A stretch of DNA of 41,564 bases from Candidatus Martarchaeota archaeon (GTDB lineage Archaea > Micrarchaeota > Micrarchaeia > Micrarchaeales > CABMGC01), in contig JAMCYP010000016.1 in NCBI GenBank assembly GCA_023476545.1, positions 2,037 to 43,600 on the forward strand, read 5' to 3'. The translations under genes were made by a program, and so were the position numbers. Numbering within the stretch: the stretch's first letter is position 1; the number at the start of each line of letters is the position of its first letter. Positions 2,541-15,618 of the stretch are shown here, piece by piece. A model generated the notes under the pieces. It saw only the letters and a list, made by a program, of their open reading frames with translations. It was not told the origin of the DNA and did no database searches.

Positions 2541-3230
2541 ATGAGGGTGAAGGTGATAATTATGGAGCCGAAGTACCAGGTGAACCTGGGCTATGCGGCC
2601 CGAACTGCCAGGAACTTCGGCGTGGACAGACTGTATGTGGTGAACCCGAGGGCGAGCCTGCGCGGCAAGACCGCGCGCATGTATGCGAAGCACGCGTATA
2701 TGCTGCTCGAGAGGGCGAAGACATACCGCAGCCTGGGCGAAGCCACTAAGGACTGCGACCTGCTTGTGGGCACAACGGGGATACGCAACAAGGCGAAGGC
2801 GAACTTCAGGCGCATCTACTTTGCCGAGGATATGGTAAAAAGGGTGGCGAGCCTCGGCGCCATAGGGACGGTGGGCCTGCTGATCGGCAGGGACGACATA
2901 GGTCTGAAGAGCAACGAGATCGAGAGGTGCGACATGATGGCGTACATAGAGACAGATCCCGGCTATCCGGTGCTCAACATCTCGCACGCCCTCGCAATCT
3001 TCCTGTACCTTCTGAGGCGTGCGGGCCTGAGGCTGCAGAACGAGGAGGGGCTGCGCGGCGAGGAGGCAGGTGCGGAAGAGATGCACACGCTGCTGAAGCT
3101 CTTCGAACGCATGATAGCTAATAAGAAGATGAGAAACAGGAAGGCGGTGCTAGGAGTGTTCAGGAGGATGCTGAGAAATGCGCAGCCGAGCAGGCAGGAA
3201 CTCCACGCGCTTATTACTGCGCTGAAGTAG
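2541..3230 (+). CDS. TrmJ-like SPOUT RNA 2'-O-methyltransferase
   Basis: 229 residues. The SPOUT knot is shown by MEPKYQVNLGYAARTARNFG near the N-terminus (the Asn-Gly-Arg substrate motif 1), LLIGRDDIGL (motif 2) and YPVLNISHALAIFLY (motif 3, normally YPsLNlsqAv). This arrangement is that of TrmJ, which methylates the ribose of nucleotide 32 in tRNA, although other SpoU enzymes share the fold. The C-terminal tail of about 60 residues is basic and helical. It is the last gene of the aIF5A operon and its stop directly abuts the stop of sepF on the other strand with no spacer, so a transcription stop must lie inside sepF or depend on a factor. Confidence 0.85.
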   Translation: MRVKVIIMEPKYQVNLGYAARTARNFGVDRLYVVNPRASLRGKTARMYAKHAYMLLERAKTYRSLGEATKDCDLLVGTTGIRNKAKANFRRIYFAEDMVKRVASLGAIGTVGLLIGRDDIGLKSNEIERCDMMAYIETDPGYPVLNISHALAIFLYLLRRAGLRLQNEEGLRGEEAGAEEMHTLLKLFERMIANKKMRNRKAVLGVFRRMLRNAQPSRQELHALITALK

Positions 3231-3611
3231 CTACTGTGTCGCTCCCTTCTTCTTCTTGATTATCTTTACCTTGGCAGGCGTTATCAGGATGCGCGTGTCG
3301 TCTATCTGCGCTATGTCGCCGTTTATCTTCATGACATAGTTCTTCAGATTTGTTATCACGTTGTTCCTTGTCGTAGGCCTCTTCGCGAGCTCTTCTATGT
3401 TCAGCAAGAGTATGTTCTTCTTAGCCAGCTCGTCCTCTATGAGCTTGAGCTCGTCCTCGCTGGATATCGAGACGGGCTTCACGTACATGTCTGCAGGTTC
3501 GTGCATGACATCTACCTGTTCCATCTCCGCCGAGTTCATATACTCTTCTATGTTCAGATCCTTTGACGAGGCAACGCCAAATGCCTGGCCTAGTTTGTCG
3601 AAAACTCCCAT
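3231..3611 (-). CDS. sepF: Archaeal SepF cell-division protein
   Basis: 126 residues from the ATG at 3611. It opens with MGVFDKLGQAFG, an amphipathic helix of the type that ties SepF to the membrane, followed by a flexible acidic linker and the SepF (DUF552) core: NILLLNIEELAKRP, a helix, then GDIAQIDDTRILITPAKVKI. SepF anchors FtsZ filaments to the membrane during division in most archaea that use FtsZ. The upstream ATG at 3632 is rejected because GGTGA lies just before the 3611 ATG and a TATA-like TTATTATATTG precedes it. The gene is alone on its strand; the helicase gene ends 140 bases upstream. The gap 3612-3750 otherwise shows only a small CGACT/AGTCG hairpin. Confidence 0.88.
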   Translation of the reverse strand: MGVFDKLGQAFGVASSKDLNIEEYMNSAEMEQVDVMHEPADMYVKPVSISSEDELKLIEDELAKKNILLLNIEELAKRPTTRNNVITNLKNYVMKINGDIAQIDDTRILITPAKVKIIKKKKGATQ

Positions 3612-12760: not shown

Positions 12761-12985
12761 CTAAGCGTAGCCCAGTGCCCTGAGCTTCTCCAGAACCCCC
12801 TCAGTGTCCTTCTTTCCGGCCTTCCTCATCTCCATCTCGGAAGTGGTCTCTCTCAGTATGTAGGTCACGTAGTCGGATACTGACGAGAAACCCGTGTTCT
12901 TTATCCTCTCCTGCAGCCTCTGGAAGAGCGGAGCGGGTATGGTTATCGTGGTGTACTTCCTCTTCTCCATGGTTTTCTTTCCCAT
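12761..12985 (-). CDS. Ribbon-helix-helix (CopG-like) regulator
   Basis: 74 residues. The strand YTTITIPAPLFQRLQERI followed by a Gly-Phe turn and SSVSDYVTYILRE is a ribbon-helix-helix DNA-binding domain that works as a dimer. After it come a short charged linker and the tail LEKLRALGYA. It is the first gene of the cysDN operon and lies directly behind an operator-like set of repeats, so it most likely represses its own operon. ATG 12985 or the internal ATG 12970 could start it; the TATA box position favours 12985. Antitoxins share this fold, but the partner gene here does not resemble a toxin. Confidence 0.85.
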   Translation of the reverse strand: MGKKTMEKRKYTTITIPAPLFQRLQERIKNTGFSSVSDYVTYILRETTSEMEMRKAGKKDTEGVLEKLRALGYA

Positions 12986-13023: not shown

Positions 13024-13036
13024 CCTTCCCTTCTGG

Positions 13037-13730
13037 GCTTTGTTGAATAGATCCTAATCTGTTGAATTAATCTGCTTTTTGTTGAAATAATTAGTTCTAC
13101 AACAATAAGTGGATTAATGATGCTGAAGCATAAAAATTGGGGTAATTATGGGCCACATAAACATTGAAATAAAGGCAAGGTGTTCTGATCATGAAAGGAT
13201 TCGGTCCATATTGCAATCTAAAAATGCCGAGTTTAAAGGTTTAGACCATCAAATAGATACATATTTTAAAGTAAATTCTGGAAGGTTAAAGTTAAGGGAA
13301 GGAAATATAGAAAATCATCTTATATTTTATGATAGGGTAGACCAAGAGGGTCCAAAGCAATCCAACGTTACTTTGTTCAAAACTGAACTTAATAGTGAAA
13401 TAAAGAGCATCCTGACTAAAGCTCTTGGAGTTTTGTATGTGGTTGATAAAGCAAGGGAGGTGTACTTCATAGATAATGTCAAATTTCATTTAGATACCGT
13501 AAAAGATTTGGGTACCTTTATGGAAATAGAAGCCATAGATACTGGAGGAATACCAAAAGAAAAACTTACAGAACAATGTAAAAATTATATGCAACTTTTT
13601 GAAATAAAGGATTCGGATTTGTTATCTGTTTCTTATAGCGATTTATTACTTGCCAAGTCTAAGTTAGAAGTTAATTGATTCTTGAAATAATGCGAGAAGT
13701 GCTGAGAAAATGTCAATTATTCAACAAAGC
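13037..13730. mobile_element. Candidate non-autonomous element with IS903-like ends carrying a CYTH gene
   Basis: GCTTTGTTGAATA occurs at 13037-13049 and its exact reverse complement at 13718-13730, enclosing 694 bases. The left end extended, GGCTTTGTTGAATAGATC, differs at one base from the terminal repeat of IS903 (IS5 family) as I recall it. The enclosed DNA is far more AT-rich than both sides and contains one gene and no transposase. Inside the left end GTTGAA repeats at 13042, 13061 and 13081, about 20 bases apart. No clear target duplication is seen (cccttctgg against tgcatcggc), so the ends may have decayed or the repeats may have another role. Confidence 0.5.
13148..13678 (+). CDS. CYTH-domain (CyaB/ThTPase-like) protein
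   Basis: 176 residues. The CYTH signature H-x-E-x-K is HINIEIKA at the start, followed by the alternating charged strands of a triphosphate tunnel: DTYFKVNSGRLKLREG, DKAREVYFIDNVKFHLD and FMEIEAIDTGG. Members bind an inorganic or organic triphosphate with metal ions; known activities include class IV adenylate cyclase, thiamine triphosphatase and tripolyphosphatase. This sequence resembles the CyaB branch, but activity cannot be read from it. Codon use is strongly AT-rich, unlike the GC-rich thrS just downstream, which signals transfer. It is the only gene between the inverted repeats described at 13037-13730. A second, diverged CYTH gene lies at 32398-32919. Confidence 0.85.
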   Translation: MGHINIEIKARCSDHERIRSILQSKNAEFKGLDHQIDTYFKVNSGRLKLREGNIENHLIFYDRVDQEGPKQSNVTLFKTELNSEIKSILTKALGVLYVVDKAREVYFIDNVKFHLDTVKDLGTFMEIEAIDTGGIPKEKLTEQCKNYMQLFEIKDSDLLSVSYSDLLLAKSKLEVN

Positions 13731-13883
13731 TGCATCGGCGGGCTTTGCTTGCGCGGTGCGCGCTCTTTTACGCTGTACGGAAAGAATAAGAACATGGCCT
13801 GCCGATCAGGCGTGATTGGGATGTCAGAAGGCAGATACTTCCAAACAGCAGGGGCGTGAGGAGCGCCAGCAATCCTGATTCGC

Positions 13884-13923: not shown

Positions 13924-15618
13924 ATGAAGGTCCTTCAGCTCGACGTTGACAGGCTAGCCTATGACGTGCTCAAGCCAGAGGCGAGCGTGTACGAGGAGAC
14001 GAAGGAGAAGCACGCAGAGTATGACGATGCGCTCGTGATGTGGGTCTGCGTAGAGAAAGGCGATACTGATGCTACCGCAGACGCTGCCATGAAGGACACG
14101 CTTGCGTTCATGGACCAGGTCGGGAGGAGGAAACTGGTCGTGTACCCGTTTGCGCACCTCAGCAGCGACCTGGCGGAGCCGAAGGAGGCGATGCGCATAC
14201 TCGAACACATGTACAAGGGAGTGCCGAAGGGCATAGAGGCGGCGAAGGCGCCGTTCGGCTGGACGAAGAAGTTCACGATTGAGATGAAGGGCCATCCGCT
14301 GGCGGAGCAGGCGAAGAGCTACGACGCGAAGGGCACGGGGAAGAAGACGTACAAGAAGGCGAAGCCTGTAAGCGAAAACACCGCTACCGTGAAGAAGAGC
14401 GACTGGTCTGGCCTGCCTGATACTGATCACAGGAGCATAGGGGAGAAGCTGGACCTCTACAGCTTCCAGGAGGTCTCTCCGGGCATGGTCTACTGGCACC
14501 CGAAGGGGCTCAAGGTCTATCTGGAGCTAGTGAAGTTCATAAGGGAGAACCAGGACAGGTACGGTTACCAGGAGATAAGCACGCCTGCGATAGCGAATCT
14601 CGCGCTGTGGCAGGTCAGCGGGCACCTGGACCACTACAGGGAGAACATGTTCATCTTCGAGAACGAGGGACAGGAGTACGGGCTCAAGCCCATGAACTGT
14701 CCCTCATCGATACTCATATACAAGTCCAAGAGGTGGAGCTACAGGGACCTGCCGTTCCGCAGCTCCATAATGGACAGGCTCTACAGGAACGAGATAAGCG
14801 GGGCGCTCACCGGCCTCTTCCGTGTCCGTGAGCTCACCCAGGACGACTCGCACATATTCGCAAGGGACGACCAGCTGCAGGAAGAGCTCCACAACGTGCT
14901 CAAGCTGCTCAACGAGACCTACTCCACGTTCGGCTTCGCCTACAAGGCAAAGCTCTCCACCATGCCTGACGACCACCTTGGTGACGAGCAACTGTGGGAG
15001 AGGGCCACCGAGGGCCTGAAGAAGGCGCTCGAGGCCAACAAGATCGCTTATGAGGTAAAGGAGAAGGAAGGCGCGTTCTACGGGCCGAAGATAGATGTGG
15101 ACATACAGGACTCGATTGGTAGGGAGTGGCAGTGTGCCACCATACAGATAGACTACCAGCTTCCGCTCCGCTTCAAGCTCGAGTACGCTGGCGAGGACGG
15201 CAAGCAGCACACTCCTGCGATAATACACAAGACGATCTATGGGTCGCTCGAGAGGTTCCTCGGCATACTCGTCGAGCACTATCAGGGGAAGTTCCCCACC
15301 TGGCTGGCACCGGTGCAGGTCAAGGTCATATCCATCTCAGACCAGTCCAACGAGTACGCGCACAAGACCTACGAGCAGTTGAGAAACGCCGGGATCAGGG
15401 TTGAGGAGGACATACAGGACCGCACCATGGAGTACAAGCTCAGGGAGGCGATAGAGCAGAAGATACCCTACATGCTTGTAGTTGGCAAGAAGGAGGTCGA
15501 CGCAGGCACCGTGGCCGTGAGGGTGAGGAGCGGCGGCCAGAAGTTCGGGGTGAAGCTCGACGACTTCATAGAGAAGCTGCACGTGGAGATCGGCAAGAGG
15601 CTGCTCAGCGCCAACTGA
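13924..15618 (+). CDS. thrS: Threonyl-tRNA synthetase, archaeal type
   Basis: 564 residues. Residues 1 to about 145 form the archaeal editing domain (related to D-aminoacyl-tRNA deacylase), which removes serine from mischarged tRNA-Thr. The class II catalytic domain follows, with FRVRELTQDDSHIFA (motif 2) and YGSLERF (motif 3). The three zinc ligands that select threonine are present: Cys in KPMNCPSS, His in DDSHIFA and His in AIIHKTIYG. The C-terminal anticodon-binding domain starts near LAPVQVKVI and ends with KLHVEIGKRL. The whole is a little shorter than other archaeal ThrRS. The gene stands alone behind its own promoter, next to the putative mobile CYTH segment. A tRNA-Thr gene lies 15 kb away at 29256-29327. 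Confidence 0.95.
   Translation: MKVLQLDVDRLAYDVLKPEASVYEETKEKHAEYDDALVMWVCVEKGDTDATADAAMKDTLAFMDQVGRRKLVVYPFAHLSSDLAEPKEAMRILEHMYKGVPKGIEAAKAPFGWTKKFTIEMKGHPLAEQAKSYDAKGTGKKTYKKAKPVSENTATVKKSDWSGLPDTDHRSIGEKLDLYSFQEVSPGMVYWHPKGLKVYLELVKFIRENQDRYGYQEISTPAIANLALWQVSGHLDHYRENMFIFENEGQEYGLKPMNCPSSILIYKSKRWSYRDLPFRSSIMDRLYRNEISGALTGLFRVRELTQDDSHIFARDDQLQEELHNVLKLLNETYSTFGFAYKAKLSTMPDDHLGDEQLWERATEGLKKALEANKIAYEVKEKEGAFYGPKIDVDIQDSIGREWQCATIQIDYQLPLRFKLEYAGEDGKQHTPAIIHKTIYGSLERFLGILVEHYQGKFPTWLAPVQVKVISISDQSNEYAHKTYEQLRNAGIRVEEDIQDRTMEYKLREAIEQKIPYMLVVGKKEVDAGTVAVRVRSGGQKFGVKLDDFIEKLHVEIGKRLLSAN

Follow-up and report, generated by a model that had tools for sequence, protein, structure and literature searches.

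How does a single gene come to lie between the ends of an insertion sequence when no transposase accompanies it? The question is raised by a short segment of the window (the whole stretch of 41,564 nucleotides analysed here, from the genome of a Candidatus Martarchaeota archaeon of the Micrarchaeota), where a gene coding for a CYTH-domain protein is found between perfect inverted repeats. This segment is very probably a mobile insertion cassette (MIC), in which a foreign CYTH gene, unaccompanied by a transposase, is enclosed by the ends of a transposon family. Gene gain in genome-reduced DPANN archaea is poorly known, and the family described here, together with its single-gene cassettes, represents a concrete vehicle with precise ends.

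The element and its cargo

The perfect 13-bp inverted repeats reported in an earlier note on this DNA were confirmed at positions 13037-13049 and 13718-13730 of the window, with 668 bp between them; the best boundaries of the element are 13036-13731 (696 bp), and its outermost base pair is mismatched. The element is non-autonomous; its left end is of type A and its right end of type B. The left terminal repeat (13036-13053, plus strand, GGCTTTGTTGAATAGATC) agrees at 17 of 18 positions with what we take to be the end of IS903, just as the note had it, and the right one (AGCTTTGTTGAATAATTG) lies at 13714-13731 on the minus strand. Further inside there are short iterons. Two of them belong to the A end and are on the plus strand, at 13060-13071 (TGTTGAATTAAT, element positions 25-36) and 13080-13091 (TGTTGAAATAAT, element positions 45-56), and one inverted copy belongs to the B end, at 13680-13691 on the minus strand (ATTATTTCAAGA, positions 41-52 read from the right end).

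The GC content falls from about 0.5 outside the element to 0.32 inside, and the third codon positions of the CYTH gene have a GC content of 0.28, the minimum among the other open reading frames of the window of at least 200 amino acids being 0.47. This gene (13148-13678, plus strand) is intact, codes for 176 amino acids and is the only open reading frame of the element. The CYTH domain (PF01928) was recognised with E=5.5e-15, and no transposase remnant was detected in the element by blastx against seven transposases of the family (best E = 1.4). The AT-rich CYTH gene without transposase is thus as originally described; lacking a DDE transposase of its own, the element is not an insertion sequence.

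Relatives of the CYTH protein number 406 in the genome collection, and the 80 that were kept (59-74% identical) come from Micrarchaeota, Parvarchaeota, Woesearchaeota, Patescibacteria, Bacteroidota and others. Most of their tree is unresolved, and it does not reproduce the taxonomy, a pattern that fits frequent horizontal transfer. The subfamily is strongly conserved and cross-domain. Among the positions conserved in at least 95% of the sequences, the protein of the window keeps 58 of 59 (the exception being V for I), which indicates that the gene is intact. To judge from its composition and from its absence in the other members of the genus, the gene is foreign and has been horizontally acquired.

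As regards function, the enzyme had been proposed to be a triphosphate hydrolase or a cyclase. Class IV adenylyl cyclases (CyaB) carry an N-terminal HF motif, and the second Glu of their C-terminal ExE is replaced by Ala, whereas the phosphatases among the triphosphate tunnel metalloenzymes have an ExExK motif and a C-terminal ExE (Vogt et al., PMC8233210). In the protein of the window the N-terminus (MGHINIEIK) has no HF motif, the C-terminal FMEIE keeps both Glu of ExE, and the match to TIGR00318 (45.9 bits) is under the cut-off of 57.95. The cyclase function was rejected since HF is absent and EIE is kept, so that the protein is more likely a triphosphatase, as predicted from these motifs, and probably not a cyclase. 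It resembles the triphosphate tunnel metalloenzymes and class IV cyclases in its CYTH domain and the former's C-terminal EIE, but has NxEIK instead of the ExExK hallmark; this change of the first Glu to Asn is found in nearly all of 58 homologues. The protein was not assigned to any known defence family by PADLOC.

A transposon family with asymmetric ends

A lone 13-bp inverted repeat in 41 kb could have arisen by chance. However, the ends of the window element are, on the evidence of the following comparisons, those of a large and apparently undescribed family of Micrarchaeota transposons. In the host genome (0.76 Mb, 25 contigs) an exact match to the 13-mer was found at three places and to its reversed control at none, and a slightly degenerate form of the 18-bp end was matched in 49 of the 164 genomes of the order, the reversed-pattern control giving very few matches. 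Position weight matrices were applied to the subterminal bases, the terminal 18 bp being excluded. Among 83,024 positions, the left side had the highest A-end score and the right side the second-highest B-end score, the highest belonging to a position inside the left end of the window element itself. Neither the A-end nor the B-end score was reached by any of 20,000 shuffles, and the scores became ordinary when the A and B assignments of the two ends were swapped. Besides, the fetched loci contain 106 distinct pairs of facing ends, and 9 of these pairs have exact 9-bp target-site duplications (TSDs), where 0.0004 were expected.

Members of the family have one A end and one B end. Two direct iterons of the TGTTGAAATAAT type, spaced by 20 bp, lie near positions 25 and 45 of the A end, and the B end contains inverted iterons near positions 22 and 41. 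The window element has one end of each kind, in register, and the register of its B-end iteron is that of a TSD-flanked element from another genus (G031); the second expected B-end iteron, at position ~22, is missing. No target duplication of 7-10 bp was found at the window copy at any of the tested offsets. The missing TSD, the lost B-end iteron and the mismatched outer pair point to a copy that is older or altered, whose last move is therefore not provable; with that iteron lost and the outermost pair mismatched, it may be mobile no longer.

In the group with TTGA-type ends, the elements flanked by 9-bp duplications measure between 56 and 4692 bp; in the group with GGCTTTGCTAA ends they are up to 5586 bp long. 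The smallest of them are hairpins of 56-76 bp, which consist of A and B ends with the same iterons. These short repeats were also considered as RNA hairpins or terminators, a proposal that was rejected although some of them fold better than shuffles; they are regarded as minimal elements because they have 9-bp TSDs and the common iterons. At four loci, L031 (genome G056), L033 (G042), L069 (G114) and L067 (G039), hairpin elements of 56-76 bp flank genes, with exact or near outer TSDs, and the two hairpins at L031 resemble each other in their inner flanks as well, as a cointegrate would leave them.

An IS5-family transposase with the same kind of ends, which the earlier note had proposed to look for, is present in relatives. 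The transposases of the autonomous members have 402-420 amino acids and consist of an N-terminal SWIM zinc finger (PF04434) and a DDE_Tnp_1 domain (PF01609). Their best NCBIfam model is transpos_IS5_2, which the protein of G029 matches with 141.2 bits (above the cut-off of 140) and that of G001 with 123.6 bits (below it). Both of these elements are flanked by TSDs and have TTGA-type ends, and the parent elements combine an IS5-type DDE transposase, inverted repeats starting with GGCTTTG and a 9-bp TSD. Transposase matches, with fragments and distant relatives counted, were found in 68 of the 164 genomes of the order, and matches of E<=1e-30, from several families, in 56 of the 301 genomes of the phylum. 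No relatives of the transposase were detected in the scan of viral contigs.

The cargo of the autonomous members is mostly related to restriction-modification (R-M), and defence genes are common among the genes that elements of this kind hold in neighbouring species. The cargo consists of a D12 methylase in G029, an Eco57I-type methylase and a restriction endonuclease in G001, a D12 methylase and an HNH nuclease in contig C13 of the host, and a methylase and a MamI-type restriction endonuclease in G093. G002 has two such elements, the first with an N6 methylase and a specificity subunit, the second with a methylase, an AIPR protein and a SocA/Panacea antitoxin. A 3729-bp part of an R-M transposon is 100% identical in G093 (L087) and G042 (L088), which are of two different families; this identity suggests a very recent transfer, though it may reflect a binning artefact.

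The search for other end copies in the host genome, also proposed in the earlier note, was successful. In contig C3 the third exact copy of the 13-mer is part of an exact 18-mer end (C3:9894-9911, GGCTTTGTTGAATAAATC) with an A-end score of 57; there, an intact isochorismatase-family gene (PF00857) lies between the A end and a frameshifted SWIM-DDE transposase (L012:5347-5912), 65-70% identical to that of G001. The opposite end of this C3 copy was not found. A further end copy with one mismatch lies at C15:30879. In this contig (L013:5812-6250) a CTAA-type end (5812) adjoins a TTGA-type B end (5879), after which come a small intact Cys-rich open reading frame and a convergent C-terminal transposase remnant, an arrangement that possibly represents nested elements. 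Contig C13 holds an autonomous transposon of 4258 bp (L083:1336-5593) with an intact SWIM-DDE transposase and a TSD (CGTTAGCGA), whose ends (GGCTTTGCTAATAAAGT) belong to the related GGCTTTGCTAA (CTAA-end) subgroup. An intact transposase with exactly TTGA-type ends was not found in the host assembly, which is 87.5% complete. Since the intact C13 transposase has CTAA ends and the cognate TTGA one in C3 is decayed, the matching enzyme may have been lost or may be encoded in the missing part of the assembly.

Members without transposase also exist elsewhere. The G031 element has 689 bp, a single open reading frame for a membrane-type protein, no transposase and a perfect TSD (ATTGCCAAG); by its organisation it is the direct analogue of the window cassette. 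Others carry a TIR protein and membrane-type proteins (G044), an NYN protein (G056) or an ATPase-like protein (G042).

The insertion site and the rival explanations

The element lies between a gene of 74 amino acids on the left (12761-12985, minus strand), whose product looks like a ribbon-helix-helix protein by eye, and the gene of an archaeal threonyl-tRNA synthetase (ThrRS) on the right (13924-15618, plus strand). Both point away from the element, and both are syntenic in G001 and G007. In G007, the closest congener by ThrRS (85%), the order of the genes is unchanged and the region between them is short and empty, so that an empty site in a relative, another of the proposed checks, was found. 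In G001, the same flanking genes enclose an R-M transposon of the family (4692 bp, TSD CTTTACGCT). Once the elements are removed, the flanks of the host and of G001 can be aligned across the junction, with about 3 bp between the two points of insertion; the two elements have the same orientation, with the A end on the left and the B end on the right. The landing place between outward-facing genes, called neutral in the earlier note, is not just neutral, given the G001 element within ~3 bp. The G001 insertion is considered recent because its TSD is perfect while the flanks of G001 and the host have clearly diverged; the comparison thus indicates that the two insertions are probably independent and that the site upstream of thrS is preferred.

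None of the other members of the genus has this CYTH gene. Two members of the order have close homologues, and in them the gene is found at another, conserved locus, beside a tRNA gene. According to the earlier note, a 13-mer without further copies, together with a CYTH gene at the same locus in distant relatives, would speak against an element; copies do exist, and the homologues occupy the other locus. In L103, L107, L108 and L109 the CYTH genes (at about 3001-3510 in each) also appear, by eye from the upstream sequence, to lie beside tRNA genes. Among some 30 homologous loci scanned, no convincing case of a CYTH gene flanked by inverted repeats and target duplications was found.

The reading of the segment as a cargo-carrying non-autonomous element, advanced in the earlier note, gains support from the family ends, the 689-bp sibling and the empty site. 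The most serious rival is that an autonomous transposon with both a transposase and the CYTH gene landed here and lost its transposase by an internal deletion, and that the 696-bp unit never moved as such. The host C3 copy, where the cargo is directly beside a decaying transposase, lends some weight to this origin, as do the parent elements, which carry cargo next to the transposase, and the absence of a TSD and of one iteron, which suggest an old copy. It is nevertheless rather unlikely, for the element retains no trace of a transposase, both ends keep the normal anatomy, and the G031 sibling, with a single gene and a perfect TSD, indicates that such short units insert as they are.

It is also conceivable that an old insertion upstream of thrS was common to the lineages of the host (G000) and G001, and that its interior was later swapped by recombination between the ends, giving R-M genes in one lineage and CYTH in the other. 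The proximity of the two elements and their common orientation agree with such an exchange, which is nonetheless improbable: the perfect TSD and perfect ends of the G001 element between diverged flanks argue for a recent insertion, the end subtypes differ (TTGATTTAGTC, perfect, in G001 versus TTGAATAGATC in the window), and G007 has neither element. Lastly, the view that the repeats are fortuitous and CYTH merely an AT-rich gene acquired horizontally can be dismissed as extremely improbable, since, even though it is not in itself rare for 41 kb to contain perfect 13-bp inverted repeats less than 1 kb apart and no TSD is present, the motif belongs to a family with tens of copies, the iterons are in register, the nearest congener has an empty site and a sibling element occupies the same site.

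Proposed mobilisation and comparison with known systems

The preferred reading remains that of a mobile insertion cassette, which a related transposase most likely moved in trans. In the proposed sequence of events the CYTH gene would have been acquired by horizontal transfer and then enclosed by IS5/IS903-like ends. A transposase with SWIM zinc finger and DDE domain, the product of a gene at some other place in the cell, would recognise the terminal repeat and the iterons spaced by 20 bp at one A end and one B end, so that the cassette could be cut out or copied whatever gene it contains. Insertion at a 9-bp staggered cut would have placed it in the short stretch that separates two divergent genes, upstream of thrS. 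Mobile insertion cassettes have been described as working in this manner (PMC3913671). The TSD of the window copy was presumably lost by a later change beside the element; IS903-type elements can cause adjacent deletions, and one of these could have removed it. Taken together, the ends with their asymmetric A/B iterons, the duplication of 9 bp and the transposase of SWIM-DDE type make up a complete and testable hypothesis of mobilisation in trans.

More tentatively, Micrarchaeota, and perhaps other DPANN archaea, might use IS5/SWIM ends as a general gene-cassette system, a possibility to which we give somewhat less than even chances. The autonomous R-M elements would supply the transposase, and cassettes without transposase but with compatible A/B ends would carry single genes from one genome to another and bring them to preferred sites, of which the one upstream of thrS would be an example. 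If so, these ends would be a main way by which very small archaeal genomes acquire genes.

Mobile insertion cassettes and cargo-bearing insertion sequences are already known as kinds. The variant described here (a micrarchaeal host, CYTH as single cargo, asymmetric iterons at IS5/IS903-like ends, and parents that have a SWIM-DDE transposase and are rich in R-M genes) was not found in the searchable open-licence papers, nor was any description of SWIM-domain IS5 transposons or of transposons with R-M cargo in Micrarchaeota. CYTH, from a subfamily scattered across domains, is an unexpected cargo.

IS903 produces a 9-bp target duplication, and MIC231 derives from IS231, of the IS4 family. The window element resembles the IS903/IS5 family through the 9-bp TSD of its sibling elements and the match of the transposases to transpos_IS5_2; it differs in that the transposases of its parents have an additional N-terminal SWIM zinc finger and the parents carry cargo. 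The mobile insertion cassettes MIC231A1 of Bacillus cereus and mic-qnrD carry a functional passenger gene between the inverted repeats of an IS family and encode no transposase, MIC231A1 is mobilised in trans by IS231A, and a target-site duplication is usual in such cassettes, though not constant (PMC3913671). The window segment likewise has family inverted repeats, a passenger gene, no internal transposase and, in G007, an empty site; its assignment to this class is well supported but provisional, as its copy has no TSD. Compared with MIC231, it has IS5/IS903-like ends, iterons, asymmetric A and B ends and a micrarchaeal host, and it lacks the duplication. To the IS-linked movement of R-M genes (PMC3031569) the autonomous relatives are similar in that they mostly carry R-M genes, but here these genes are inside a transposon with its own transposase and a 9-bp TSD, and the window element carries CYTH. 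Finally, with the TIMEs, miniature inverted-repeat elements derived from Tn3 (PMC4133298), the hairpins of the family have in common that they are found on either side of genes and, acting as pairs, may transport these genes, as at L031, L033 and L069; TIMEs differ from these hairpins by another transposase family and another target duplication.
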